From Nonlabens tegetincola (lineage in GTDB: Bacteria > Bacteroidota > Bacteroidia > Flavobacteriales > Flavobacteriaceae): a stretch of DNA of 64,000 bases. Made by a program: the position numbers and the translations under genes. The notes beneath the pieces are model-generated. The model did no database searches. It was not told the origin of the DNA and saw nothing but the letters and a program-made list of their open reading frames with translations. Of the stretch, positions 25,840 to 38,049 are shown one piece after another (position 1 is the stretch's first letter; each line of letters opens with the position of its first letter). The stretch spans positions 124,001 to 188,000 of the forward strand of contig NZ_MQVV01000017.1 of the NCBI RefSeq assembly GCF_002954355.1, in the 5' to 3' direction.

Positions 25840-26547
25840 TTAATGACATTTATATTGAGAGCTTACCTGCTCTACAGTTACATTTTCTGATGGTGAAACA
25901 TAGGGTATATCTAACCCTAAACCTCTTAATACAAACAAAGCTCCAATCACTACAACAACCACAGGGATCATTTTAATTACCCGTTTTTTGACCTGTCCAG
26001 TTAAAAAATTTCCTAGATAAATAGCAGTAGTCATCATAGGAATTGTTCCTAGACCAAACATCAACATATAGATTCCGCTTGCGCTCACACTGTTCATAGC
26101 AACAGAAGCAAATACGGCCATGTAAACTAAGCCACATGGTAAAAATCCATTAAGAAAACCCATCATAAAAAAGTTTTCATAACCTCTTTTTTTAAGCTGT
26201 TGGGATAAACTAGATTTCACCTTACCAATAAGTAAATAAACTGGTTTTGTTATAGAAAATCTCTGTAAAAATTTAGAAGGTAATACCACAGTAGCGATCA
26301 TTAATATTCCTACACCAATAGAAATATATTGCTGAAATCCGAATAAATGAGCACCACGTCCTATATACCCAAGCATCATTCCTATCGTAGCATAGGTAAA
26401 CAATCTACCACTATGATAACTGATTAATTGTCCCCACCTTTTAGTACGGCTTTTTCTATCCAATGGCAGTAAAAAAGCTATTGGACCACACATTCCTACA
26501 CAGTGAAAACTCCCTAATAGACCCAGTATGAAAGCAGTATATATCAT
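25840..26547 (-). CDS. TauE/SafE-like membrane protein of cbb3 oxidase loci
   Basis: A 235-aa protein with six predicted membrane helices. It contains the motif GSFHCVGMCGPIAF at residues ~12-25 and NGFLPCGLVYMAV near residue 137, where His and Cys residues could bind copper. These are marks of the DsbD/UreH-like family often annotated as sulfite exporter TauE/SafE. In Bacteroidetes it accompanies ccoG and ccoH and is thought to help metal supply or maturation of the oxidase; sulfite export is unlikely here. Its ATG overlaps the ccoH stop (TAATG). Confidence 0.85.
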   Translation of the reverse strand: MIYTAFILGLLGSFHCVGMCGPIAFLLPLDRKSRTKRWGQLISYHSGRLFTYATIGMMLGYIGRGAHLFGFQQYISIGVGILMIATVVLPSKFLQRFSITKPVYLLIGKVKSSLSQQLKKRGYENFFMMGFLNGFLPCGLVYMAVFASVAMNSVSASGIYMLMFGLGTIPMMTTAIYLGNFLTGQVKKRVIKMIPVVVVVIGALFVLRGLGLDIPYVSPSENVTVEQVSSQYKCH

Positions 26548-26993
26548 TAATACAAAATAGATTCTTTATACAGATAATCATTATCTTTAGTAGTCCATTC
26601 AATAGTAATGTTCCAACGACCGTCCACCAGCTTGTTATCAGGTATGAGCAAGTGAGAACCAGATAATTTCAAATCAAATTGAGTATCTAGTTTTTGGTTG
26701 GACGGTCTATATAGGAACACTGTGCCAGAACTATTAATCTCGTTTATTTCTTCAGGGAACTCTATTAACCAACCTTCCTTAGTTCGCTTTCCATTAATTT
26801 TTTTGGATAAACTTTCAAGACGCTTTTCCTGATCAATTTCATCTTGATATGCCATCTCCTTTGCGTAGTAATTTTCAGTTACAAGATCGTGATCATAATC
26901 GCTATCAGTAAGCATGGTTATTACCATAAACATGATAAAGGCAATAAATCCTATCATTCCTAGAACAATACCGGTTCCCCAATTCCATTTCAT
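26547..26993 (-). CDS. ccoH: cbb3 oxidase assembly protein FixH/CcoH
   Basis: A 148-aa protein with one N-terminal membrane anchor (GIVLGMIGFIAFIMFMVITML). The FixH motif DYDHDLVTENYYAKEMAYQDEID is present in full. The remainder forms a periplasmic beta domain. CcoH/FixH proteins help stabilise and assemble cbb3 oxidase. It overlaps the TauE-like gene by one base and lies 144 bases after ccoG, with one of the two structured repeats between them. Confidence 0.92.
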   Translation of the reverse strand: MKWNWGTGIVLGMIGFIAFIMFMVITMLTDSDYDHDLVTENYYAKEMAYQDEIDQEKRLESLSKKINGKRTKEGWLIEFPEEINEINSSGTVFLYRPSNQKLDTQFDLKLSGSHLLIPDNKLVDGRWNITIEWTTKDNDYLYKESILY

Positions 26994-27031
26994 ATTTTAT
27001 TCTTTTTAACTCTTATATTATTTGTGCATGC

Positions 27032-27135
27032 CAGCTACCCTACTTTAGGTAGCTGTCGGGCTATACGTTACAATTCCTCGCTATTAGTTATTGTATAACC
27101 ATAGCTGCGGGATTTTCACTACTATCCCTCATGCG
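27032..27135 (+). repeat. structured intergenic repeat, copy A
   Basis: Read on the plus strand it begins with a perfect hairpin, CAGCTACC (27032-27039) with GGTAGCTG (27048-27055). TCGGGCTATACG follows, then a middle segment, then GGGATTTTCACTACTATCCCTCA. Copy B at 28597-28674 has the same order of parts (hairpin, TCGGGCT, second segment, ATCCCT) on the other strand. Elements of this look recur between genes in many Bacteroidetes, as far as I recall. Copy A lies between ccoG and ccoH, ending three bases from the ccoG stop. Confidence 0.75.
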
Positions 27136-27137
27136 TT

Positions 27138-28556
27138 TTAATTAAAACTTCTAGGTCCCAAAAAGGTAGTTGTTGTAGTTTCAATTAAATGTGAACCACT
27201 GTAAATACCTATTTCAACTTTATCTTTTTCTTCTTTAAGTAAGTTTGAGTCAATTTCAATAAACAATGTCCCTTCTGCGAGCTCTTGCGCTGGTACATTA
27301 ACCTCATCATTCACCACTTTTATAAAACCGTCATGCGATAATAACTTAAAGCTAACATCCTCAATATTTTGAGTGGTTTTATTCACTAATTTGTAGGTAA
27401 AAACATTACTTATATTACTACCTTCTTTATGCTCATACAATTGACCAGGTAGACGTAGGATTCTAGCCTCAATATCATTACGTAAAAACAACATACCGAC
27501 TAGCACCGCAATTAATACACCTAGCACCACACTATAACCTTTAAGCCTAGGAGTAAATTCAAATTTTGTTTTTTTCTCTATATTTTCCTCACTTGCATAG
27601 CGTATGAGACCTTTAGGCAATCCCACCTTTTCCATCATGCTATCACAGGCATCGATACATGCGGTACAGTTGACACATTCCAGTTGTGTACCATTTCTTA
27701 TATCGATACCAGTCGGACAAACATGAACACACTGTGCACAATCAATACAATCTCCTTTACCACTGGCTTCACGATTTTCTGATTTTTTAAACTTTGCTCG
27801 CCCTTTTTCTTTTTCACCTCGCTTATAGTCATAAGCTACTACTATAGATTTATTATCCAATAAAACTCCTTGTAATCTACCGTAAGGACACGCTATAACA
27901 CATACTTGCTCTCTAAACCAAGCAAAGACAAAGTAAAAAACTGCTGTAAAAATTAATAATGAAATAAATGTGCTTAGGTGGTACTTGGGTCCATCAATCA
28001 TATACTTAAGTAATTGATCACTACCTATCAAATAAGCTAAAAAAACATTAGCTATTAAAAACGAAATAATAAAGAAGACAATCCATTTAATGACTCTTTT
28101 CTTAATTTTTTCGGCATTCCATGGAGCTTTTTTCAGTCGAATTTGCTTACCACGATCGCCTTCAATCCAGTACTCGATCCTTCTAAATACCATTTCCATA
28201 AAAATGGTTTGAGGACATATCCAACCGCAAAAAATACGACCATAGGCTACAGTGAAAAACACCACAAAAAGAACACCTATAAGCATACTTATGACTACTA
28301 GGTGAAAATCTTGAGGCCAGAATGGTTGACCAAAAATATTAAACCTTCTTTCAAGAACATTTATCATGATAAACTGATTACCATTTATCTTGATAAAAGG
28401 AGAAATAAATAATATCGTAAGCAGAAAATAGCTTACAATCTTACGCCAATTGTAATACCTACCAGAAGGTTTTTTAGGAAATATCCATGCGCGTTTCCCG
28501 TCTTGGGTAACGGTGCTTATACTGTCTCTAAAAACTTCAGCTTCTGGCGATTTCAT
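27138..28556 (-). CDS. ccoG: cbb3 oxidase accessory protein CcoG (FixG), ferredoxin-type
   Basis: A 472-aa membrane protein with about five transmembrane segments. It carries two 4Fe-4S cluster motifs near residues 265-310 (CIDCAQCVHVCP and CVNCTACIDAC). An Ig-like periplasmic C-terminal domain ends the protein. The conserved FCGWICPQTIF and ACPYGRLQG stretches also carry cysteines. CcoG reduces copper for insertion into cbb3 oxidase in characterised bacteria. It lies downstream of ccoP, from which structured repeat B separates it, and repeat A follows it. Confidence 0.96.
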   Translation of the reverse strand: MKSPEAEVFRDSISTVTQDGKRAWIFPKKPSGRYYNWRKIVSYFLLTILFISPFIKINGNQFIMINVLERRFNIFGQPFWPQDFHLVVISMLIGVLFVVFFTVAYGRIFCGWICPQTIFMEMVFRRIEYWIEGDRGKQIRLKKAPWNAEKIKKRVIKWIVFFIISFLIANVFLAYLIGSDQLLKYMIDGPKYHLSTFISLLIFTAVFYFVFAWFREQVCVIACPYGRLQGVLLDNKSIVVAYDYKRGEKEKGRAKFKKSENREASGKGDCIDCAQCVHVCPTGIDIRNGTQLECVNCTACIDACDSMMEKVGLPKGLIRYASEENIEKKTKFEFTPRLKGYSVVLGVLIAVLVGMLFLRNDIEARILRLPGQLYEHKEGSNISNVFTYKLVNKTTQNIEDVSFKLLSHDGFIKVVNDEVNVPAQELAEGTLFIEIDSNLLKEEKDKVEIGIYSGSHLIETTTTTFLGPRSFN

Positions 28557-28596
28557 ACTATTTATTTTATTCGTAAGAACTAGGATACTTTTGAGT

Positions 28597-28674
28597 TAGG
28601 GATTGAGACGGCATCCTCTTGTGGTAGCAAGAGATATAGTCGAAAGCCCGACCCAAAGTCCCAAGGACTTTGGG
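28597..28674 (-). repeat. structured intergenic repeat, copy B
   Basis: Read on the minus strand: perfect 10-bp hairpin CCCAAAGTCC/GGACTTTGGG (28652-28674), then TCGGGCTTTCGAC, a second hairpin (CTCTTG...CAAGAG) and finally AATCCCTA. The order of parts matches copy A, in inverse orientation. It occupies most of the ccoP-ccoG gap and starts eight bases from the ccoP stop, so it could act as a 3' mRNA structure. Confidence 0.75.
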
Positions 28675-28681
28675 AAACTTC

Positions 28682-29653
28682 CTAATTAAATTTTGAATTA
28701 GTTACTACACTATTTTGTAAACTATCGGTTACTATCGTTTTGTCTGGATTTTCAATTATCATTTTATCAGGAGCATCAGGATTGTTCCATATTTCTCCTT
28801 GAGGTTCTTTAGGTTCGGCTGGTGTGGTTCCCTCAAACTGCATGACATAACTGGCTACTTGAGCAATTTGTGCTGGCTTAAGTTCAGTCTTCCATGGCAC
28901 CATTCCTTTGCCACTACGACCACCTTCTGAAATGGTATTGAAAATATTTTTTATGCCACCACCAAGTATCCAGTAGGAATCTGTTAAATTGGGACCTATT
29001 CCACCACCACCATCAACCTTGTGACATGCAGCACAGTTTTGATTAAAAATTTCCTTACCAGCGTTTAAATCACTTGCGTCGGTCAATAATGTAACTGTGT
29101 TTACATCTACTAGATCTTTTGCCGTTTTTTTCCATTCTTCTACTTGTGCTCGAGCAATTTCCATTTCAGTTTCAAACTCTGATGCTTGGTCATACTCATT
29201 AAATACATGGAATCGCGCCAAGTAAACTACACCAAAAATGATAGTTGCATAAAACATGTAAAGCCACCATGGTGGTAAGTTGTTATCTAATTCTTGTATA
29301 CCGTCGTAATTATGATCGAGTACAATCTCATGCTCGCTTTCAATAGGTTTGCTATCTAGAGATTTTTTATACACTCTTTTTATTCTAGCAAATTGATTTT
29401 CCTTACGTGTTTTTTCGGCAAGGTCATAGCGCTCTTTTGCTTCTTTATCAAGGGTGTTGTATAGGACCGCTTTTAAAGTTGAAATACTGGCCTCACCGGC
29501 AATCATAAGTGTTATCAAAAGTGCAACCAGCGGCCAAAACCATACTTTTTCAAATGCTGAAAATGGTTGGTCTGGTGAAGCTACAAACATGAGCAAGCCT
29601 GATGCAACGACTGCAAAAACACCAACTCTTATATAGGATGATAAGGTTCTCAT
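28682..29653 (-). CDS. ccoP: cbb3-type cytochrome c oxidase subunit III (CcoP), mono-haem
   Basis: A 323-aa subunit with an N-terminal membrane region and the CcoP signature DGIQELDNNLPPWW before a transmembrane helix near residue 130. The C-terminal cytochrome c domain has a single CAACH haem site (~residue 210) and a probable axial Met in GKGMVPW. Proteobacterial CcoP has two haem c sites. Only one is seen here, so this subunit passes electrons through one c-type haem. It overlaps ccoQ by four bases. Confidence 0.94.
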   Translation of the reverse strand: MRTLSSYIRVGVFAVVASGLLMFVASPDQPFSAFEKVWFWPLVALLITLMIAGEASISTLKAVLYNTLDKEAKERYDLAEKTRKENQFARIKRVYKKSLDSKPIESEHEIVLDHNYDGIQELDNNLPPWWLYMFYATIIFGVVYLARFHVFNEYDQASEFETEMEIARAQVEEWKKTAKDLVDVNTVTLLTDASDLNAGKEIFNQNCAACHKVDGGGGIGPNLTDSYWILGGGIKNIFNTISEGGRSGKGMVPWKTELKPAQIAQVASYVMQFEGTTPAEPKEPQGEIWNNPDAPDKMIIENPDKTIVTDSLQNSVVTNSKFN

Positions 29654-29844
29654 TGTTTATTAATATTTGTAGTTAAAGAATCATCTAAGGGTATGTTACT
29701 CACCTCTTCAATATGTTGCTTTTTTGCTGTTGCTACCCAAAAGAAGAGTGCTACAAAAAAGACGAAGAATATGAGTAAGGAGATCATGGGATAAATACTT
29801 ACCCCATCAATCTGTTCTAAATTTTGTTTTACAAACTTGAGCAT
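29650..29844 (-). CDS. ccoQ: cbb3 oxidase small subunit CcoQ
   Basis: A 64-aa protein with one hydrophobic helix (MISLLIFFVFFVALFFWVAT, residues ~20-39) and a polar C-terminus. Size, topology and position between the catalytic subunit and ccoP identify it as CcoQ, which stabilises the complex. It overlaps ccoP by four bases (ATGA-type coupling) and follows ccoNO after six bases. Confidence 0.88.
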   Translation of the reverse strand: MLKFVKQNLEQIDGVSIYPMISLLIFFVFFVALFFWVATAKKQHIEEVSNIPLDDSLTTNINKQ

Positions 29845-29850
29845 GACTTA

Positions 29851-32049
29851 TTAATTTGATGCAGTTTGCGCTGCGTTACTTATAACTTTTATATCAGTCC
29901 CTAATCGCTGTAAATAAGCAATAAGAGCGGTTATCTCACGATCTTTAATTTCTACAAACTCCTCACCTTGTTGTTGCTTTCTAGTTTTATCTGCCTCGTA
30001 AGTTTTTAAGAAATCTGGATCTTCAGATAGGTTGCTTTGTATTTGACTACCTTGTTCGTCCATCCATTCTTGAGCTCGATCTACATCATCCTGTGTATAG
30101 GGAACGCCTAGTGAAATCATGGCTTCCATTTTAGCCTCGGTATTTGATTTATCAAGTTTTGATGTGATTAACCATTTATAAGCTGGCATTATGGAACCAT
30201 CTGATGTACTTTGAGGATCATACATATGATTAAAGTGCCAATTATCGTTGTATTTCCCTCCTATCCTAAGCAAATCAGGACCTGTACGTTTACTACCCCA
30301 AAGAAATGGGTGATCATATACAAATTCACCAGCCTTAGCATACTCTCCATATCGCTCAACTTCACTACGGAAAGGACGTACCATTTGAGAGTGACAATTA
30401 TTACAACCTTCTCGTATGTATATATCACGACCTTCTAGCTCAAGAGGTGTATATGGTTTTACACTCGAGATAGTTGGAACGTAATCATCAACCAGTAAGG
30501 AAGGTATAATTTGGACTGCACCACCAATTAAAATTGCTATTGTAGCGTATATAGTCAATTTGACTGGTCTTCTTTCTAACCATGTGTGATATCCTTCTTT
30601 GGCAGTTCTACTAGAGGTTACAGCAGGTAGAGCCGCAGCTTCTGCAAGTTCATCGGTAACTTTTTTACCAGAACGAGCTGTCATAATCACATTATGGACT
30701 CCTACTAACGCACCTACTATATATAAACTTCCTCCTATAGCACGCATCCAGTACATAGGCATAATTTCATTTACAGTCTCTAGGAAATTACCGTAAACTA
30801 AGGTACCGTCTGGATTAAATTGTTTCCACATAAATGCCTGTACAAATCCAGCTACATACATGGGTAATGCATAAAGCATGATTCCTAATGTACCTATCCA
30901 AAAATGAACATTTGCTAATTTATTAGACCACAATTTTGTTTTGAACAGTTTAGGCACTAACCAATATATCATACCAAAGGTTAGGAAACCGTTCCAGGCT
31001 AAAGCTCCTACGTGTACGTGAGCTACAATCCAATCGGTAAAATGGGCAATAGCATTAACGTTTTTAAGCGATAACATAGGTCCTTCAAATGTGGCCATAC
31101 CATATCCTGTGATAGCTACCACCATAAATTTAAGTACTGGACTAGTGCGCACTTTATCCCATGCACCGCGTAACGTAAGCAGTCCGTTTATCATTCCACC
31201 CCATGATGGAGCGATCAACATTACTGAAAAAGCTACTCCTAAATTTTGCGCCCAATCTGGTAGTGCAGAATATAACAGATGGTGAGGACCAGCCCATATG
31301 TAGATGAAAATCAAAGACCAAAAGTGGACTATGGACAACCTGTATGAATACACTGGTCTATTGGCTGCTTTAGGAACAAAATAATACATAAGTCCTAAGA
31401 AAGGTGTAGTTAAGAAAAAAGCAACTGCATTATGACCATACCACCATTGAACTAGAGCATCCTGAACACCTGCATAGGCTGAATAACTCTTTAAAAAGGT
31501 TACAGGCAGCTCCATGCTATTAACAATATGAAGTACCGCAACAGTAACAAATGTTGCTAGATAAAACCAAATAGCCACATACAAATGTCGTTGTCTTCTT
31601 TTAAGTATAGTTCCTATAAGATTTGCTCCAAAAGCTACCCACACAATTGCAATTGCAATATCTATAGGCCACTCCAACTCGGCATATTCTTTGGAACTTG
31701 TATAACCTAATGGTAAGGTTATAGCCGCTGCAACAATAATAAGTTGCCATCCCCAAAAATTGAAATTACTTAAAAAATCACTCCACATACGAGCTTTTAG
31801 CAGTCGTTGGGTAGAGTAATAAACACCTGCATAAATTGCATTACCTACAAATGCAAATATCACTGCATTGGTGTGAAGAGGCCTTAACCGACCAAAGCTT
31901 AGCCATGAAATACCGTCGGTTACATTAGGAAAAATGAACATGAATGCGAGTAATAACCCTACACTCATACCTACGACACCCCAAACTAGAGTTGCGACTA
32001 TAAATTTGCGTACAATCTTGTTATCGTAGTAAAATTGTTGCAGTTCCAT
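29851..32049 (-). CDS. ccoNO: fused cbb3 oxidase subunits I and II (CcoN-CcoO)
   Basis: A 732-aa fusion. Residues ~1-480 are the 12-helix haem-copper catalytic subunit CcoN, with conserved histidines in RPLHTN, QWWYGHNAV, GPHHLLY and HVHVGALAWNG. Residues ~510-732 are CcoO, a membrane-anchored cytochrome c with one CNNCH haem site followed by SQMVRPF. It reduces O2 to water at high affinity and pumps protons. The CcoNO fusion is the usual arrangement in Bacteroidetes. The start follows the ccoS stop by 34 bases, and the pair shares an upstream operator. Confidence 0.97.
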   Translation of the reverse strand: MELQQFYYDNKIVRKFIVATLVWGVVGMSVGLLLAFMFIFPNVTDGISWLSFGRLRPLHTNAVIFAFVGNAIYAGVYYSTQRLLKARMWSDFLSNFNFWGWQLIIVAAAITLPLGYTSSKEYAELEWPIDIAIAIVWVAFGANLIGTILKRRQRHLYVAIWFYLATFVTVAVLHIVNSMELPVTFLKSYSAYAGVQDALVQWWYGHNAVAFFLTTPFLGLMYYFVPKAANRPVYSYRLSIVHFWSLIFIYIWAGPHHLLYSALPDWAQNLGVAFSVMLIAPSWGGMINGLLTLRGAWDKVRTSPVLKFMVVAITGYGMATFEGPMLSLKNVNAIAHFTDWIVAHVHVGALAWNGFLTFGMIYWLVPKLFKTKLWSNKLANVHFWIGTLGIMLYALPMYVAGFVQAFMWKQFNPDGTLVYGNFLETVNEIMPMYWMRAIGGSLYIVGALVGVHNVIMTARSGKKVTDELAEAAALPAVTSSRTAKEGYHTWLERRPVKLTIYATIAILIGGAVQIIPSLLVDDYVPTISSVKPYTPLELEGRDIYIREGCNNCHSQMVRPFRSEVERYGEYAKAGEFVYDHPFLWGSKRTGPDLLRIGGKYNDNWHFNHMYDPQSTSDGSIMPAYKWLITSKLDKSNTEAKMEAMISLGVPYTQDDVDRAQEWMDEQGSQIQSNLSEDPDFLKTYEADKTRKQQQGEEFVEIKDREITALIAYLQRLGTDIKVISNAAQTASN

Positions 32050-32083: not shown

Positions 32084-32239
32084 TTAGTCTTGAAGCACAT
32101 CTTCATCATCAAACAACATGCGAACTGATGGTGTGTACGTGTCGTCATATTGACCGCTGCGTACAGAGATCACAAAGGCTATAAAAAATCCTATAGCAAC
32201 AACCACGCTTATGGCTAGTAATAAATAAATGATGTTCAT
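32084..32239 (-). CDS. ccoS: cbb3 oxidase maturation protein CcoS
   Basis: A 51-aa single-pass membrane protein: MNIIYLLLAISVVVAIGFF..., then FVISVRSGQYDD, the CcoS signature, and an acidic tail (RMLFDDEDVLQD). CcoS is needed for cofactor insertion into cbb3 oxidase. It is the first gene of the ccoS-ccoNO-ccoQ-ccoP run and lies 21 bases downstream of a -7 box with an operator upstream. It is short and easily missed by automatic calling. Confidence 0.93.
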   Translation of the reverse strand: MNIIYLLLAISVVVAIGFFIAFVISVRSGQYDDTYTPSVRMLFDDEDVLQD

Positions 32240-32259
32240 ACCTGACTTATTTTATACGG

Positions 32260-32304
32260 TAAAATTAGATCTAGATGCCACCTTGAAATGGTGACTTTTG
32301 TCAC
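32260..32304 (-). promoter_or_regulatory. cco operon promoter with Crp/Fnr-type operator
   Basis: A perfect inverted repeat, GTGAC-TTTT-GTCAC (32291-32304), lies 23 bases upstream of TAATTTTA (32267 down to 32260 on the minus strand), a near match to TAnnTTTG. If transcription starts about 7 bases past the box centre, the operator centre falls near -41.5. That is the class II position for Crp/Fnr activators. The same repeat lies upstream of ccoI. Confidence 0.75.
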
Positions 32305-32329
32305 TTAATACCTATCTTTTTTTGTTGTT

Positions 32330-32575
32330 TTAAACAAATGCATACATGGCTATAAGTTGAGTTTCATAGCGCAGTTTGGTCCATTGGTTTAACATTGCGA
32401 CATCTTCTTGGAGTAGCAATGAGTTTTTTATTTGAAGTAGTTCTTGTTGCAGCAAAAAATATTGGGAAGACAGTTGATCCAATTCAGGAACAAGGTCTGA
32501 CTTCTCCCGAGAAACATAACACTGTGTTCTCAGTGCCTGTATCTTAGATGCGAGTATCGATAATTGGTTATTCAT
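32330..32575 (-). CDS. small helical protein between ccoI and ccoS
   Basis: An 81-aa soluble protein predicted to be almost entirely helical, with heptad-like Leu/Gln stretches (QLSSQYFLLQQELLQIKNSLLLQ). It starts seven bases after the ccoI stop, so it is probably translated from the ccoI mRNA. The cco operator follows its stop. I recognise no family. Position alone suggests a link with cbb3 assembly or copper handling. Confidence 0.6.
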   Translation of the reverse strand: MNNQLSILASKIQALRTQCYVSREKSDLVPELDQLSSQYFLLQQELLQIKNSLLLQEDVAMLNQWTKLRYETQLIAMYAFV

Positions 32576-32582
32576 AATTTAA

Positions 32583-35045
32583 TTATGGTTTGATTTTATT
32601 TGAAGCGTAATAAGAAAACAAGGTGGTAAACACCACAATGCTTATGGAACTCAAAGGCATTAAAATAGCAGCAATAACTGGTTTCAAATGACCGGTTACA
32701 GCAAAACCTAAGCCTATAAGATTATAGAGTAATGAAAAGATAAAAGCGTATGAAATAATAGATCTTGCCTTATTAGCTAGTTGTAAATACTGAGGTAAAA
32801 AATGAAATTGTGAAGCATCGATGATACCATCACATGCAGGAGAAAAAACATTTACATTTTCAGATATGGCGATACCCACATCACTTTGTTTAAGAGCTCC
32901 TGCATCATTTAAACCATCTCCTATCATCATTACTTTGCTACCATTATTTTGTAATTCTTTTACAAATCGCATTTTATCATCAGGCCTTTGATTAAATAAA
33001 AAGCGAGTACTTTCTGGTAGTATTTTTTTCAAAGCCTGTAATTCACCTTCATTATCACCAGATAAAACCACAATTTGATATGATTTCTCAAGTTCTTTAA
33101 AAGTTTCAGCCATTCCAGGGCGATATTCTGTTTGAAAAATGTAGCATCCTTTATAAGAAGAATCTGTTGCTATATGAACTGCCGTCTCTTTACTGGCACT
33201 TACATCAATTGAATTTGAAGAATCAATACCAACATATCGCGCCGATCCTATTTTAATAGTTTGAGATGCAATGGAACCAGTAATTCCTTGTCCTACATGT
33301 TCTTGAAAAGTGTCTAACGTTTGAATGTTATTCTCCTGTAAAATTTTATATAAGGATCTACTCAAGGGATGGTTTGATGCCTTAAGAGTACTGGACAATA
33401 ATTGTTTTTCCATATCATCCAGTGCAATTCCCTCATAATGAACTGTATTTTTAGAAGCGCTGGTTAAAGTACCCGTTTTGTCAAAGATTATGGTATCTAA
33501 CTCAGACATCTTTTCTATAACATGACTGTTTTTAAGATATAGCTTTACCTTACCATAAAATCGTAATACATTACCTAATGTAAAAGGAGCGGCAAGTGCA
33601 ATGGCACAAGGACAAGCTACTATAAGCACCGCTGTAAATACATTAAGCGCCATACTATTGTCGTAAAACAACCAGAATAAAGCAGCAATGATCGCTACAC
33701 TTAAAATACCAATTGTAAATCTTTTACTTATTCGATCAGTTATAGATTGTAACCGTGTACTATCCTCTTCTTTAAAAATTTCGTTGGACCATAATTGAGT
33801 CAAATACGATTGCTCGACTCCTTTAATCACCTCTAGCTCAAGCAAGCCAGATTCCTGCCTACCACCTGCATAAATTTTATCTCCTGATTGTTTAGGCACT
33901 GGCTGTGCCTCGCCAGTTACAAAACTATAATCTATAAGCGCCTTTCCCTTTATCAGAATAGCATCCACAGGGATAAGTTCCCCATTCCTAATCAGAATTC
34001 TATCACCAGGTTGTAATTCATAAACTGGCGTTTGCACCTCGCGGTCTAGGTTACTCTTGTTAGGTTGATTTATTGTGTTGTCGATCTCGCTTTCGCGAAA
34101 GCGTAATTCTTCACATTCCCGAGGTTTTACAATCTTTGTAACACCAATAGGGAAATAGCTTTTGTAATCACGTTCAAACGAAAGATAGGCATAGGTTTTT
34201 TGTTGAAAAAATTTACCCAACAAAAGAAAAAAGACGAGTCCTGCAAGACTATCCAGAAAGCCCGTACCCCAATCCATTATAATTTCTATAAGTGACCTTA
34301 AGAAAAGTACACTTATCCCTATCGCGATAGGCACATCTATATTTAAAATCCTTGATTTTATACCTTTAAAAGCCGAAATGAAGTAGTCTACACCACTATA
34401 AAACACCACAGGTATAGAAAAAGCAAGCATCAACCATCTAAATACATGTTTAAATTGATCTAGCCAGTATTCATTGACTTCAAAATACTCAGGAAAGGAC
34501 AAGAACATTATATTGCCAAATGCAAATCCAGCTACACCTAATTTATAAATCAGACTGCGGTCTTTTACTTTTTTTGATTTTTTTGAATCTTCAAGAGAAA
34601 TGTAAGGTTCGTATCCTAGATTAGATAATAGTATTACCAAAGATTTTAAATTAAGATGCTCTGGTTGATAAACTATCCTTACCGTTTTTTCAGGAAAATT
34701 AACCTGAGATTGTGTAACAGCTGGGTTGATTTTATGCAAATGTTCCAGTACCCAAATGCAACTACTGCAATGCATAGAAGGGATAAGGAGCTGTACAATT
34801 TGTGTATCTTGTTCATTAAACTCTAAAATGGAATTAACAATATCCTGATTTTCTAAAAAATCAAATTTTCCTTCAAAATCTCTCGGACTCACTCCTGGAT
34901 GTTGTTCAAGATCGTAGTAATAGGATAAATTGTTTTCATTCAAAATATCATAAACCGTCTTACAACCATGACAACAAAATACCTTGTGATCATGTTCAAT
35001 AGCACCCGTAATACACGGATCACCACAGTGGAAACATTTTTCCAT
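32583..35045 (-). CDS. ccoI: copper-transporting P-type ATPase of cbb3 biogenesis (CcoI/FixI)
   Basis: An 820-aa P1B-type ATPase. The N-terminal cysteine-rich part (CFHCGDPC, FCCHGCKTVY) precedes an HMA-like domain with MHCSSC near residue 92. Eight membrane helices are expected. CPCAIALAAP is the copper-site motif, DKTGTLT the phosphorylation site and GDGLNDAGAL the hinge. CcoI exports copper for insertion into cbb3 oxidase. An insertion of about 30 residues before VYELQPGDRI contains the palindrome copy, read as RFRES. A GTGAC-N4-GTCAC operator lies 65 bases upstream. Confidence 0.95.
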   Translation of the reverse strand: MEKCFHCGDPCITGAIEHDHKVFCCHGCKTVYDILNENNLSYYYDLEQHPGVSPRDFEGKFDFLENQDIVNSILEFNEQDTQIVQLLIPSMHCSSCIWVLEHLHKINPAVTQSQVNFPEKTVRIVYQPEHLNLKSLVILLSNLGYEPYISLEDSKKSKKVKDRSLIYKLGVAGFAFGNIMFLSFPEYFEVNEYWLDQFKHVFRWLMLAFSIPVVFYSGVDYFISAFKGIKSRILNIDVPIAIGISVLFLRSLIEIIMDWGTGFLDSLAGLVFFLLLGKFFQQKTYAYLSFERDYKSYFPIGVTKIVKPRECEELRFRESEIDNTINQPNKSNLDREVQTPVYELQPGDRILIRNGELIPVDAILIKGKALIDYSFVTGEAQPVPKQSGDKIYAGGRQESGLLELEVIKGVEQSYLTQLWSNEIFKEEDSTRLQSITDRISKRFTIGILSVAIIAALFWLFYDNSMALNVFTAVLIVACPCAIALAAPFTLGNVLRFYGKVKLYLKNSHVIEKMSELDTIIFDKTGTLTSASKNTVHYEGIALDDMEKQLLSSTLKASNHPLSRSLYKILQENNIQTLDTFQEHVGQGITGSIASQTIKIGSARYVGIDSSNSIDVSASKETAVHIATDSSYKGCYIFQTEYRPGMAETFKELEKSYQIVVLSGDNEGELQALKKILPESTRFLFNQRPDDKMRFVKELQNNGSKVMMIGDGLNDAGALKQSDVGIAISENVNVFSPACDGIIDASQFHFLPQYLQLANKARSIISYAFIFSLLYNLIGLGFAVTGHLKPVIAAILMPLSSISIVVFTTLFSYYASNKIKP
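34089..34102. repeat. GCTTTCGCGAAAGC palindrome, copy 6
   Basis: Perfect core in ccoI, read as RFRES within an apparent insertion ahead of the actuator domain. Flanks give ATCTCGCTTTCGCGAAAGCG. Confidence 0.97.
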
Positions 35046-35109
35046 TTATCTAGTTCTTAAAATTGCTTATACCTGGGATAAAGGTGAGCACAAGACAAGC
35101 AATAAAACG

Positions 35110-35123
35110 GTGACTTTTGTCAC
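35110..35123. promoter_or_regulatory. Crp/Fnr-type operator upstream of ccoI
   Basis: GTGAC-TTTT-GTCAC, identical in all 14 bases to the operator at 32291-32304 and extended here to GGTGAC...GTCACC. On the minus strand a weak -7-like CACCTTTA (35086 down to 35079) follows after 23 bases, the same spacing as at the cco promoter. Confidence 0.72.
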
Positions 35124-35194
35124 CCTAGAACAATAAATTATGAAATGATTAGTAATTAAAAAACTGTATTTCAGTATTTTAAAACAAAAATTCT

Positions 35195-35416
35195 ATGAAA
35201 ACTAATGCACTATTTTGGGTTTATTTGGTGACGGCAGTATTAGTAATCCTCACCGTTTCTAGTCAACTAGGTACTTCCTTTAAATGGATTTTTACAGGTA
35301 CCTTAATTGGTCAACTATTATTACTTACTATGGTATATAAAATTTTGACCGATGATTATGAGACTGATAAAACTTTTGAAGATTTCTATGAAGATCGCCC
35401 AGACTTGGGTAAATAA
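35195..35416 (+). CDS. small two-helix membrane protein of unknown function
   Basis: A 73-aa protein with two hydrophobic segments (LFWVYLVTAVLVILTV, residues ~6-21, and WIFTGTLIGQLLLLTMVYKI, ~31-50). An acidic C-terminal tail follows (DDYETDKTFEDFYEDRPDLG). It is divergent from ccoI and shares its upstream region with the operator at 35110. The position between ccoI and the Crp/Fnr gene suggests membership of the respiratory regulon. No family is recognised. Confidence 0.65.
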   Translation: MKTNALFWVYLVTAVLVILTVSSQLGTSFKWIFTGTLIGQLLLLTMVYKILTDDYETDKTFEDFYEDRPDLGK

Positions 35417-35524
35417 AAACTTTTGTTACTGTTTTGTTGTTCAAGTGTAGTACGCCTGATTTTTATTTAATTGAACATTAGTAGATGTTTTATTAATTTT
35501 ACACATTGTTTGATCAAGTATAAT

Positions 35525-36226
35525 ATGAATCATCATAAAGAAAGTCGTTGTGAGAATTGTGTAATAAGACAGCTTAACTCTCTCAAGGCTTTATCAAAGG
35601 AACAGCTCAAAGAAATAAGTGACAGTAAAGTAACTAAATCTATTAAAAAAGGTGAAGTCATATTTGCTGAAGGTGAGCGACTACACGGCGTTTTCTGTGT
35701 AAGAAATGGTGTTTCTAAATTGTCCAAGACTAGTGAGAACGGTAAGGACCAAATTGTAAAAATTGCTACTAAGGGTGAAGTATTAGGACAGCGATCGGTT
35801 ATTACCGAGGAATCGGCCAATTTAAGTGCTGTTGCATTAAATGACATGGAAATGTGCTACATTCCAAAAACACATTTAATCAATAATATAAATCGCAACC
35901 CAAAGTTTACAAAAGCTGTTCTTATTCAAATGGCCGATGATTTGAAGTTTGCTGATGATGTAATTGTAAATATGGCGCAAAAATCGGTGAAGCAGCGCAT
36001 TGCAGAAACATTAATGTACTTAGAGAAAAATTTTGGAATTGATCAAGAAGGCTATATTTCTATGACTCTAACCAGAGAAGATATAGCTAACGTAGTTGGT
36101 ACTGCCAAAGAAGCCTGTATACGTACCTTGACTAGTTTTAAAAAGGAGGAATGGATTATTACCGATGGTAAGCGTATTAAAATTACCGATAAAAACGCTC
36201 TCTTAAAATTGAGTAAAGGATTTTAA
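35525..36226 (+). CDS. Crp/Fnr-family transcriptional regulator
   Basis: A 233-aa regulator. An N-terminal Cys pair (ESRCENC) precedes a cyclic-nucleotide-binding-like beta-roll (KGEVIFAEGERLHGVFCVRNG, residues ~40-60). A long dimerisation helix and a C-terminal winged helix-turn-helix (LTREDIANVVGTAKEACIRTL, ~185-205) follow. The recognition helix KEACIR keeps the Glu and Arg used by CRP to read GTGA half-sites. This makes it the best candidate to bind the GTGAC-N4-GTCAC sites nearby. The Cys pair could hold an Fe-S cluster, but the full Fnr cysteine set is not clear. ATG 35525 is preferred to an upstream TTG. Confidence 0.9.
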   Translation: MNHHKESRCENCVIRQLNSLKALSKEQLKEISDSKVTKSIKKGEVIFAEGERLHGVFCVRNGVSKLSKTSENGKDQIVKIATKGEVLGQRSVITEESANLSAVALNDMEMCYIPKTHLINNINRNPKFTKAVLIQMADDLKFADDVIVNMAQKSVKQRIAETLMYLEKNFGIDQEGYISMTLTREDIANVVGTAKEACIRTLTSFKKEEWIITDGKRIKITDKNALLKLSKGF

Positions 36227-36816
36227 TTGTAACACCACTCATCTATTTTTGACCAAACGTGATTAGGGTCAACCTTGTAAATTTCGCTTTTTTGTATCCT
36301 ACTCTTTAAGGAAGTAATGAATATAAATTCCTTTGGTCGGATAGTAATTCCACCCCAATGGCTTGGACGCTCAATATCTTTATTTGCATTCATTTGAGTA
36401 ACCTTATTAAGATTATCAAATAAACATTTTCTTGAGTAGATGATAGCACTTTGGTTACTAGCCAATGCACTTAATTGACTTTCTCTAGGTCTTCTGAAAA
36501 AATAATTGTCAGAAATTTCACTTTCTGTTTGAGAAGCTAGACCTTTTACAATAATCCTCCTAGAGATATTAGGCCAATTGAACTCCAAGCTGCAATTAGG
36601 ATTAGATATTAAATCCATAGCCTTGTTACTGTTGTAATTAGTAAAAAAAGTAAGACCTTTCCAATTGTATTCTTTTAGAAGCACTACTCGATTACTGATT
36701 TCAAGGTCGTTACTTATCGTTGTTAATCTCATGGCATTACACTCGGGAACATGTGGATGATCCCGAGCGGTAACTAGCCATTCATGAAATAATTGTAAAG
36801 GGTTACAATCGTCCAC
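36223..36816 (-). CDS. pyridoxamine 5'-phosphate oxidase-like flavoprotein
   Basis: A 197-aa protein of the PNPOx-like split-barrel family. It follows PdxH closely: NRVVLLKEYNWKGLTFFTNYNSNKA (FMN-binding region, residues ~42-66), LEFNWPNISRRIIVKG, and YFFRRPRESQLSALASNQS near 105-123. It is shorter than PdxH, and the C-terminal substrate motif (usually RLHDR) is replaced by SLKSRIQKSEIY. It may therefore not make pyridoxal phosphate. It follows the usp gene after two bases and probably shares its Crp/Fnr-type promoter. It overlaps the regulator gene by four bases. Confidence 0.8.
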   Translation of the reverse strand: MDDCNPLQLFHEWLVTARDHPHVPECNAMRLTTISNDLEISNRVVLLKEYNWKGLTFFTNYNSNKAMDLISNPNCSLEFNWPNISRRIIVKGLASQTESEISDNYFFRRPRESQLSALASNQSAIIYSRKCLFDNLNKVTQMNANKDIERPSHWGGITIRPKEFIFITSLKSRIQKSEIYKVDPNHVWSKIDEWCYN

Positions 36817-36818
36817 TT

Positions 36819-37658
36819 TTACAATTTCAATGTTAGTACAGGTAAAATTGAATGGTTTGCTATATCTTCACTTACACTGCCTTTAAGTAATCGAGAAACA
36901 CCTGTTCTTCCATGTGTAGGTATAGCGATAACATCTACTTGTGAAAGCTGTGCGTAAGACATGATGCCTTCTTCAATACTGTAATCTGCTATTCGATTCA
37001 CTTTTTTGATAGCACTCAGTGGTTCAGGATGATTAAGCTTTGTAAAGAAATTGAGTAAAATTTCATCCATTTCATTAGTACTCTTAAAGTTTGAACCAGG
37101 TAAATTGACGTATACTAATTCCACTCTTGATTCAAACATTTCAGCTATTTCTAGAACTTTTTTGTAGGCAGGAATCACTTCTTCATCAAAGTTACTAGCC
37201 AGTACTATTTTTTCTGGATTAAAATTAAGGTCGTTTTCCTTGACCACTAGAACAGGAACCTGAGAGCTGCGTACCACTTTTTCGGTATTACTACCAGATA
37301 TCACCTCTTTGAAGCCATTTGCGCCATGCGTACCCATTACTATTAAGCTGGCATCTACATCGCTTGCAAACTCACCTATACTTTCAAAGTTCAATTCTTT
37401 TTGTAAAACTGGCTCTACAACTAATCCTTCTAAATACTCCTTATCAGTAAATTCACTAAATTGTTTCTCGGCTAGTTTTAGTTGAAAAATGTTTTGTTGA
37501 ACAGCTTGTGCTTGGTTTTGATTAATGACTAGTTCTTCAATACCAGCCATGTGACATAACAGTAATTTTGCATTTATTTTATGTGCAACTCGTGCTGCTA
37601 CTTGTAATGCTTTTTCTGATTCTTTTGAAAAATCTACCGGAATTAAAATGGATTTCAT
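36819..37658 (-). CDS. universal stress protein, tandem UspA domains
   Basis: A 279-aa cytosolic protein with two UspA domains. The first is residues 1-140 (start MKSILIPVDFSKESEKAL; nucleotide motif VMGTHGANGFKEVISGSNTEKVV). The second is ~148-279, with a clear end motif IPTHGRTGVSRLLKGSVSEDI. G-x-x-G-x9-G-S/T patterns in both suggest ATP binding. The divergent control region upstream has a Crp/Fnr-type operator and a good -7 box, so low-oxygen induction is plausible. Confidence 0.92.
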   Translation of the reverse strand: MKSILIPVDFSKESEKALQVAARVAHKINAKLLLCHMAGIEELVINQNQAQAVQQNIFQLKLAEKQFSEFTDKEYLEGLVVEPVLQKELNFESIGEFASDVDASLIVMGTHGANGFKEVISGSNTEKVVRSSQVPVLVVKENDLNFNPEKIVLASNFDEEVIPAYKKVLEIAEMFESRVELVYVNLPGSNFKSTNEMDEILLNFFTKLNHPEPLSAIKKVNRIADYSIEEGIMSYAQLSQVDVIAIPTHGRTGVSRLLKGSVSEDIANHSILPVLTLKL

Positions 37659-37684
37659 GCTCTACCTGTTTTAAAATTATAGAA

Positions 37685-37758
37685 CAAAATTATTCTTGAT
37701 ATAATTTTCTCAAGGTGACAATTATCATCTTTTTCCCAATATTCTAGAATTAATTTTA
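37685..37758. promoter_or_regulatory. divergent promoter region with central Crp/Fnr-type operator
   Basis: An imperfect operator, GTGAC-AATT-ATCAT (37715-37728), is flanked symmetrically. TAATTTTG on the minus strand (37692 down to 37685) serves usp, and TAATTTTA on the plus strand (37751-37758) serves the HMA gene. Each box begins exactly 22 bases from the operator edge. This matches the spacing at the cco and ccoI sites within one base. Confidence 0.68.
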
Positions 37759-37776: not shown

Positions 37777-38049
37777 ATGGAAACAAGTTTATTGTTACAA
37801 AACCTGAAATGTAGCGGTTGTAAAAATGCTATACTTAAACGTATATCAAAATTGGATGGAATAAAAAACATTCAATTAGATGTCCCATCTAGTAAGCTTT
37901 CATTTGAATACACCAGTCATAATGCATTGGAAGGATTACGCAGTAATCTAGCTGATATGGGTTATCCAATCAGTGGTGAATCTAATACCATTGTTGAGAA
38001 AACAAAATCCTACATTCAATGTGCCGTGGGCAGGTTATCCAAAGAGTAA
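37777..38049 (+). CDS. HMA-domain metal-binding protein (copper chaperone-like)
   Basis: A 90-aa protein with a ferredoxin-like HMA fold over residues 1-65. The metal-binding loop is LKCSGCKNAI (C-x-x-C), followed by KRISKLDGIKNIQLDVPSSKLSFEY. A C-terminal extension of about 25 residues has one more Cys. Such proteins carry Cu(I) to ATPases or sensors. Its location beside the cbb3/CcoI island and behind the shared operator suggests copper delivery for oxidase assembly. The metal is inferred. Confidence 0.85.
   Translation: METSLLLQNLKCSGCKNAILKRISKLDGIKNIQLDVPSSKLSFEYTSHNALEGLRSNLADMGYPISGESNTIVEKTKSYIQCAVGRLSKE

Follow-up and report, generated by a model that had tools for sequence, protein, structure and literature searches.

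The window analysed here, a 64,000-nucleotide (nt) stretch of Nonlabens tegetincola DNA (contig NZ_MQVV01000017.1, positions 124,001–188,000, forward strand), encodes a cbb3 oxidase, a copper-type P-type ATPase and an FNR-like regulator, and carries palindromic operators of the Crp/Fnr type at a nearly constant distance from promoter boxes. The source genome comprises 3,028,293 bases in 21 contigs and its nearest relatives are Flavobacteriaceae; our family sample consists of 149 genomes, 116 with ccoN and 33 without. Controls were the reversed pattern for genome scans, shuffles for the window, a Markov model for upstream regions and three control words for the cco loci.

Three palindromes lie in the region, two identical (GTGACTTTTGTCAC) and one weaker (GTGACAATTATCAT). 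Re-reading the window bore out the coordinates given for them in the original prediction, together with the four gaps claimed there—a gap being the number of nt between the edge of the 14-mer operator and a −7-like box—of 23 nt at ccoS and ccoI and 22 nt at usp and the HMA-domain gene. The operator of the ccoS-NO-Q-P-G-H operon (32291–32304, reverse strand) reads GTGACAAAAGTCAC, or GTGACTTTTGTCAC on the forward strand, keeps its position in relatives and precedes the box TAATTTTA of the cco promoter (32260–32267, reverse strand). The same sequence, GTGACAAAAGTCAC or GTGACTTTTGTCAC on the forward strand, recurs as the ccoI operator (35110–35123, reverse strand), which is followed by a degenerate box, CACCTTTA (35079–35086, reverse strand), with CA in place of TA; most relatives have nnnnTTTG at 22 nt here. 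Between the divergent usp and HMA promoters, a sequence match gives a single operator, GTGACAATTATCAT (37715–37728, no strand assigned), flanked by the usp box TAATTTTG (37685–37692, reverse strand) and the HMA-gene box TAATTTTA (37751–37758, forward strand).

Downstream of the first operator, on the reverse strand, are ccoS (32084–32239; NCBIfam TIGR00847, 40.3 bits, cut-off 28.35), a ccoNO fusion for cbb3 oxidase subunits I/II (29851–32049; NCBIfam NF011053, 1337.7 bits, cut-off 1080), and ccoQ, ccoP, ccoG, ccoH and a gene for a DsbD_2-like protein (25840–29844). CcoG scores above and CcoP below its NCBIfam cut-off; the ccoQ and ccoH labels are our assumption, from gene position and general knowledge of such operons. 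The copper-type ATPase gene ccoI (32583–35045, reverse strand) matches PF00122, PF12156 and PF00403 in Pfam and the heavy-metal P-type ATPase family TIGR01525 in NCBIfam (348.5 bits, cut-off 346.25). The FNR-like Crp/Fnr regulator, our candidate reader of the operators, is encoded at 35525–36226 on the forward strand; it lies inside the interval covered by the original prediction and is absent from it, as are the family consensus and the family spacing described below. Beyond it are the gene for a universal stress protein with two Usp stretches (36819–37658, reverse strand; PF00582) and that for an HMA-domain protein, a possible copper chaperone (37777–38049, forward strand; PF00403). Among 80 relatives' loci that we read, some of them cut by contig ends, 75 have ccoN, ccoS, ccoI and a Crp/Fnr gene together, and 64 have the full set, with ccoP, ccoG, ccoH and DsbD_2 as well; the order of these last four genes is conserved (ccoQ was not among the genes searched).

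The operator and its spacing are conserved across the family. Among 93 loci with 200 nt of sequence upstream of ccoS, a single one is without the operator, and each of the other 92 combines it with a TAnnTTT[GA] box at a distance of exactly 22 nt; the Markov control gives 0.6% for the operator and 0.0000 for operator plus box. With 20 more genomes and the window included, xTGAYN4RTCAx is found at 113 of 114 ccoS loci (locus L193 is without it), and the box stands at exactly 22 nt in 111 of these 113, the exceptions being L236 (TAATTTCG) and the window (23 nt). The family consensus upstream of ccoS is AAAcaTGAcAAAtgTCATnTTTT, followed by an A-rich, weakly conserved spacer and then TAnTTTT. The palindrome of the relatives, AAAnATGAYNNNNRTCATnTTTT with a core of (A/C)TGAY-N4-RTCAT, corresponds to GTGACNNNNGTCAC in the source genome. 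Upstream of ccoI, the operator is present in 97 of 98 relatives' loci; TTTG occurs at a common offset in 90 of the 95 with an operator within 140 nt, and a TAnnTTT[GA] box at 21–24 nt in only 5 of 98.

Across 1.9 Mb of cco loci, a gap of 22 nt separates operator and TAnnTTTG box in 114 cases, the runner-up, 8 nt, accounts for 15, and each of the three control words, which are 2–5 times rarer than the operator, has none at 22 nt. Operator plus box has 555 matches in the 149 family genomes versus 16 for the reversed pattern. With the gap left free over 31 values, 98 of 150 fall at one value, 9 at the next above and 5 at the next below, among the matches listed. Because the palindromes are conserved with fixed spacing across relatives, we reject chance as their origin, which bare-palindrome counts in the window or genome alone would not have rejected. 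Gaps in the source genome are 23 nt at the ccoS, ccoI, hemN and thioredoxin promoters and 22 nt at usp and the HMA gene; 23 nt is thus a departure of this genome from the family norm of 22, a shift of one base common to four promoters.

In Flavobacterium psychrophilum, according to the main text of PMC9723704, the sigma-A box TAnnTTTG sits at −12 to −5. If this position applies here, a 22-nt gap places the operator at −48 to −35 with its centre at −41.5, a 23-nt gap centres it at −42.5, and transcription of the cco operon is predicted to start near 32255. The same text reports strong induction of the cbb3 oxidase by oxygen limitation, with heme-synthesis enzymes also increased; 'Crp' and 'Fnr' have no occurrence in it. 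Drawing on the operators, their spacing and conservation, the neighbouring genes and their linkage, we consider it very probable that the sites belong to a low-oxygen regulon conserved in flavobacteria and serve class II activation there, with the adjacent FNR-like regulator as their most likely reader. A dimeric Crp/Fnr protein, most likely the product of 35525–36226, would bind the palindrome centred 41.5 (or 42.5) bp before the start, adjoining RNA polymerase at the TAnnTTTG box, and would activate the cbb3 oxidase operon, the copper ATPase, heme synthesis (hemN) and the Usp and HMA proteins. We infer direct binding and activation by this regulator, and oxygen sensing through an Fe–S cluster on C9, C12, C111 and possibly C58, from sequence; gene content and the induction described in the main text of PMC9723704 suggest low oxygen as the signal.

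Several of the genes that carry the sites fit such a regulon. Enrichment at respiration genes, the absence of which had been set beforehand as a refutation of the original prediction, was examined and came out in favour of that prediction; in the family the sites precede cco, ccoI, hemN and other genes. In the source genome, operator and box stand together ahead of ccoS, usp, the HMA gene, an open reading frame (ORF) of 95 amino acids followed by hemN (TIGR00538, 401 bits, cut-off 325), and a Thioredoxin_9 gene; ccoI has the operator with a box that is without TA. The single low-oxygen regulon proposed for the oxidase, copper supply, stress protein and chaperone is supported by these sites, and hemN and the thioredoxin gene extend it. 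These five linked sites (L170 thioredoxin, L172 hemN, L173 usp, L177 ccoS and L178 HMA) are among ten operator-plus-box matches in the genome. A sixth, L171, lies between cydA and a TonB receptor gene, pointing at the latter about 450 nt away and merely flanking cydA. L174, L175 and L176 were taken as chance matches because they are inside ORFs, and L179, which is intergenic with no respiration link, was set aside.

From the family-wide matches, 30 were fetched as loci, one per genome, two of which had no ORF. Usp genes follow five of the sites (Pfam identifies two of them, resemblance three), and Thioredoxin_9 genes, each identified by Pfam, follow three. By resemblance, ccoS follows two sites, ccoI one and hemN one, the last also matching Radical_SAM. 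Single sites stand before feoA (Pfam), before nirK (TIGR02376) and before a pta-like gene that is cut by the locus end and scores below the cut-off of NF004167. The rest have no evident link and include two IS200-like transposase genes (L142 by Pfam, L152 by resemblance).

In many relatives a single operator appears to have two jobs. Of 73 relatives in which ccoI and the regulator gene flank an intergenic region of up to 700 nt, 71 have exactly one operator in that region. Among L046–L125, 65 loci combine an operator with an unambiguous ATG; in 46 of these a TAnnTTT[GA] box lies toward the regulator gene, at precisely 8 nt from the operator. The median distance from operator end to regulator ATG is 37 nt. 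The operator centre would then be at −41.5 toward ccoI and at −27.5 toward the regulator, over the promoter of the latter. The simplest reading is that one operator activates ccoI and represses the regulator, which would probably limit its own synthesis in many relatives, because a centre near −27.5 is a place from which a bound protein should block polymerase. We make this suggestion for the relatives only, because in the window no operator (at most two mismatches from GTGACN4GTCAC, 35123–36259) lies directly upstream of the regulator gene. There the two-spacing layout is lost and a 73-amino-acid ORF with no Pfam match (35195–35416, forward strand) intervenes between the ccoI operator and the regulator; the layout is likewise gone in several of the nearest relatives (L046–L048 and L050–L052). 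ORFs similar to this one occur in several relatives' cco stretches (L049, L052, L054, L181, L190, L191 and L195).

The regulator has the Crp/Fnr fold, with a cNMP-type (PF00027) and a Crp helix-turn-helix (HTH; PF13545) domain. Its structural model (mean pLDDT 84.1) best matches 2gau, a Porphyromonas Crp/Fnr protein, and holo-FNR of A. fischeri (5e44) is among the top matches (TM 0.75). All 81 regulator sequences compared have C9, C12, C58 and C111. The cluster cysteines of FNR are residues 20, 23, 29 and 122; C9, C12 and C111 align with FNR cluster cysteines, so three of the four match and the fourth, C58, is at a new place. Our working hypothesis is that C58 replaces Cys29 as a cluster ligand, although it could be structural; strands 55–61 and 108–114 of the model, in the strand order expected for the fold, would bring C58 close to C111. 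Two other positions, 34 and 64, hold Ser in the window but Cys in 69 of 81 sequences each, a pattern that would fit paired gain or loss.

The recognition helix offers a further connection between protein and site. All ten proteins compared retain E196 and R200 of the HTH; in the FNR-like regulators and the receiver-Crp fusions alike, the E and R of this helix sit where TGA is read. Ten of 102 sequences have Lys at residue 195, which we take to occupy the place of Arg180 in CRP; the others have Thr or Val there. Half-sites with an outer G number 8 of 40 in the Lys group, none of 342 in the group with another residue and 1 of 74 in loci without the FNR-like regulator (Fisher 7e-9, Lys versus other-residue group); this P value overstates the case, because the window alone supplies four of the eight and the loci are related by descent. 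The agreement between Lys195 and outer G, in line with CRP Arg180, points to co-variation of residue and base.

The sensor itself may have been exchanged while the operator was kept. In the 149 genomes, ccoN is found in 116, a regulator of the adjacent type (E ≤ 1e-44) in 91 and a fusion of a receiver domain to a Crp protein (E ≤ 1e-60) in 65. The 116 cco genomes divide into 52 with the adjacent regulator only, 28 with the fusion only, 35 with both and one with neither (G048, 82% complete); one or both are thus present in 115 of 116, versus 6 of 33 genomes without ccoN. Of 19 fetched genomes that have the fusion and lack the adjacent regulator, 18 retain the operator upstream of ccoS and every one retains it upstream of ccoI. 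The receiver-Crp fusions are about 350 amino acids long (L203, L206, L207, L217 and L230–L235), and the four regulator cysteines are missing from those compared. In all six fusion loci read at length (L230–L235), a kinase gene stands before the fusion gene and Usp-like genes with operators at 22 nt follow it; Pfam gives PAS, HisKA and HATPase in two of the kinases and also identifies two of the fusions, the rest being recognized by resemblance. The fusion with its PAS kinase probably reads the same operators in lineages without the adjacent regulator, and site, helix and co-occurrence suggest that it would control cco there. We considered FixL-like heme sensing by the partner kinase, in which the Pfam domains (PAS, HisKA and HATPase) include no stated heme ligand; the PAS domain presumably is without the heme histidine of FixL. 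Some relatives (L208 and L209) have a second cysteine-rich Crp/Fnr paralogue, paralogue B, with CxxC-x4-C, a later Cys and an E-x-x-I-R helix.

The window has two further features. An 81-amino-acid ORF at 32330–32575, between ccoI and the ccoS operator, has no Pfam match and no relative in the 80 loci by tblastn at E 1e-4. Another palindrome, GCTTTCGCGAAAGC, has 13 exact copies between 820 and 59302 versus 0.00 expected from shuffles, one of them (34089–34102) within the ccoI frame.

Several observations weigh against an activator regulon read by the adjacent protein. The bare palindrome is not enriched in the window or genome-wide: GTGACN4GTCAC with up to two mismatches occurs 13 times in the window versus 11.4 in shuffles, the one-mismatch form 22 times in the whole genome versus 42 for the reversed control, and RTGAYN4RTCAY 72 versus 93 times; the exact form occurs three times in the 3.03-Mb genome, two of them in the window. 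We accordingly rejected the 14-bp matrix without a box as a means of finding the regulon. Enrichment of operator plus box in the source genome is modest, with 5 matches versus 1 in the control for the CAAANNTA form and only 5 versus 4 for the TAAANNTA form, such that TAAA-type boxes are barely above control. Even family genomes that lack cco and both kinds of regulator have a mean of 0.85 sites versus 0.07 in the control. The congeneric genome G010, in which ccoN and the two regulators were all missing at the thresholds applied, does not discriminate as a control because its strict site count of 1 equals that of the source genome. The ccoI box of the window is without TA. The best NCBIfam family of the regulator is Fnr at 103.2 bits, below the cut-off of 228, and among 81 sequences the place of FNR Cys29 holds Asn 71 times and Ser ten times. 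Operators persist in genomes without the adjacent regulator, so linkage alone cannot name the binder. Transcription starts, binding and expression in N. tegetincola are predictions from sequence.

That persistence also favours a reading in which another Crp/Fnr protein uses the class II sites in N. tegetincola and the adjacent gene is a mere neighbour, and the source genome does have three more HTH_Crp_2 matches, one of them below the Pfam cut-off. We judge this unlikely: by our reading, these three proteins (L211, L219 and L225) are without Glu at the place of E196, whereas E-x-x-I-R is common to the adjacent regulator, the receiver-Crp fusions and paralogue B; no receiver-Crp fusion is found in the source genome at E ≤ 1e-60; and K195 goes with the outer G. 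Still less credible, to the point of being highly improbable, is that a repressor bound at the cco, ccoI, usp and hemN sites shuts these genes off while oxygen is abundant. Where the operator stands 8 nt from a box for the regulator gene, as it does in 46 of 65 relatives, it is in a repressing position, but the ccoS, ccoI, usp and hemN sites lie 22–23 nt upstream of a box that they do not cover, as suits activation, and ccoI boxes mostly lack TA, as may hold for activator-dependent promoters. Of these alternatives we give most room, while still doubting it, to a signal other than low oxygen, with the regulator answering carbon, nitric oxide or redox state. A metatranscriptome paper (PMC8510549) assigned a Crp/Fnr homologue of Flavobacteriales to MalR-like carbon sensing, nirK lies downstream of a site in one relative, and the kinase that partners the fusion has a PAS domain without known ligand. 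Against this, the genes next to the sites include classical targets of FNR-type regulators (cbb3, hemN, feoA and the pta-like gene), the regulator has four invariant cysteines, and cbb3 is induced by oxygen limitation in the main-text account of F. psychrophilum (PMC9723704).

Taking the low-oxygen activator regulon together with the exchange of sensors, we lean, by a small degree, towards a joint account. An operator and its geometry would have been kept while the sensor was exchanged between an FNR-like protein with C58 for C29, a PAS kinase with a receiver-Crp fusion, or both; one operator would do two jobs, activating ccoI at 22 nt and repressing the regulator at 8 nt; and in the source genome Lys195 and the outer G would have changed together while four promoters moved by one base. 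If true, such an exchange of sensors over a conserved operator would illustrate how a regulon can persist after its regulator is lost. With the exact 22-nt gap (111 of 113 loci), class II activation at a TAnnTTTG promoter can be modelled quantitatively, and operator plus gap provides a handle for finding low-oxygen genes across the whole family.

Among titles and abstract openings, in which subscription journals are thinly covered, we recognized no published operator of this type and no flavobacterial receiver-Crp regulator of cco. The closest known systems are FNR of Escherichia coli and FnrL/FixK of alphaproteobacteria, with which the present one has in common the Crp/Fnr fold and a palindromic TGA/TCA site. 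Their regulons use class II placement and include cbb3 oxidase and hemN, genes that sites precede here as well, and FNR-type sites carry the outer bases TTGAT. Here, by contrast, the outer bases are A/C (G in the window) and the promoter is of the Bacteroidota TAnnTTTG type; the regulator further differs from FNR in having Asn or Ser for the C29 ligand, an invariant Cys at 58 and a score below the NCBIfam Fnr cut-off. With class II promoters of CRP the window has the GTGA half-site in common, although CRP operators have a different spacer between their arms, and the N-terminal CxxC and C111 set the regulator apart from CRP, as they do FNR. The FixL–FixJ–FixK cascade likewise ties a PAS kinase and a receiver protein to control of cbb3, as we suggest for some lineages here, but in these the receiver and Crp domains form one protein. 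The box is that of Flavobacterium sigma-A promoters as given in the main text of PMC9723704, and its position is assumed to be the same.

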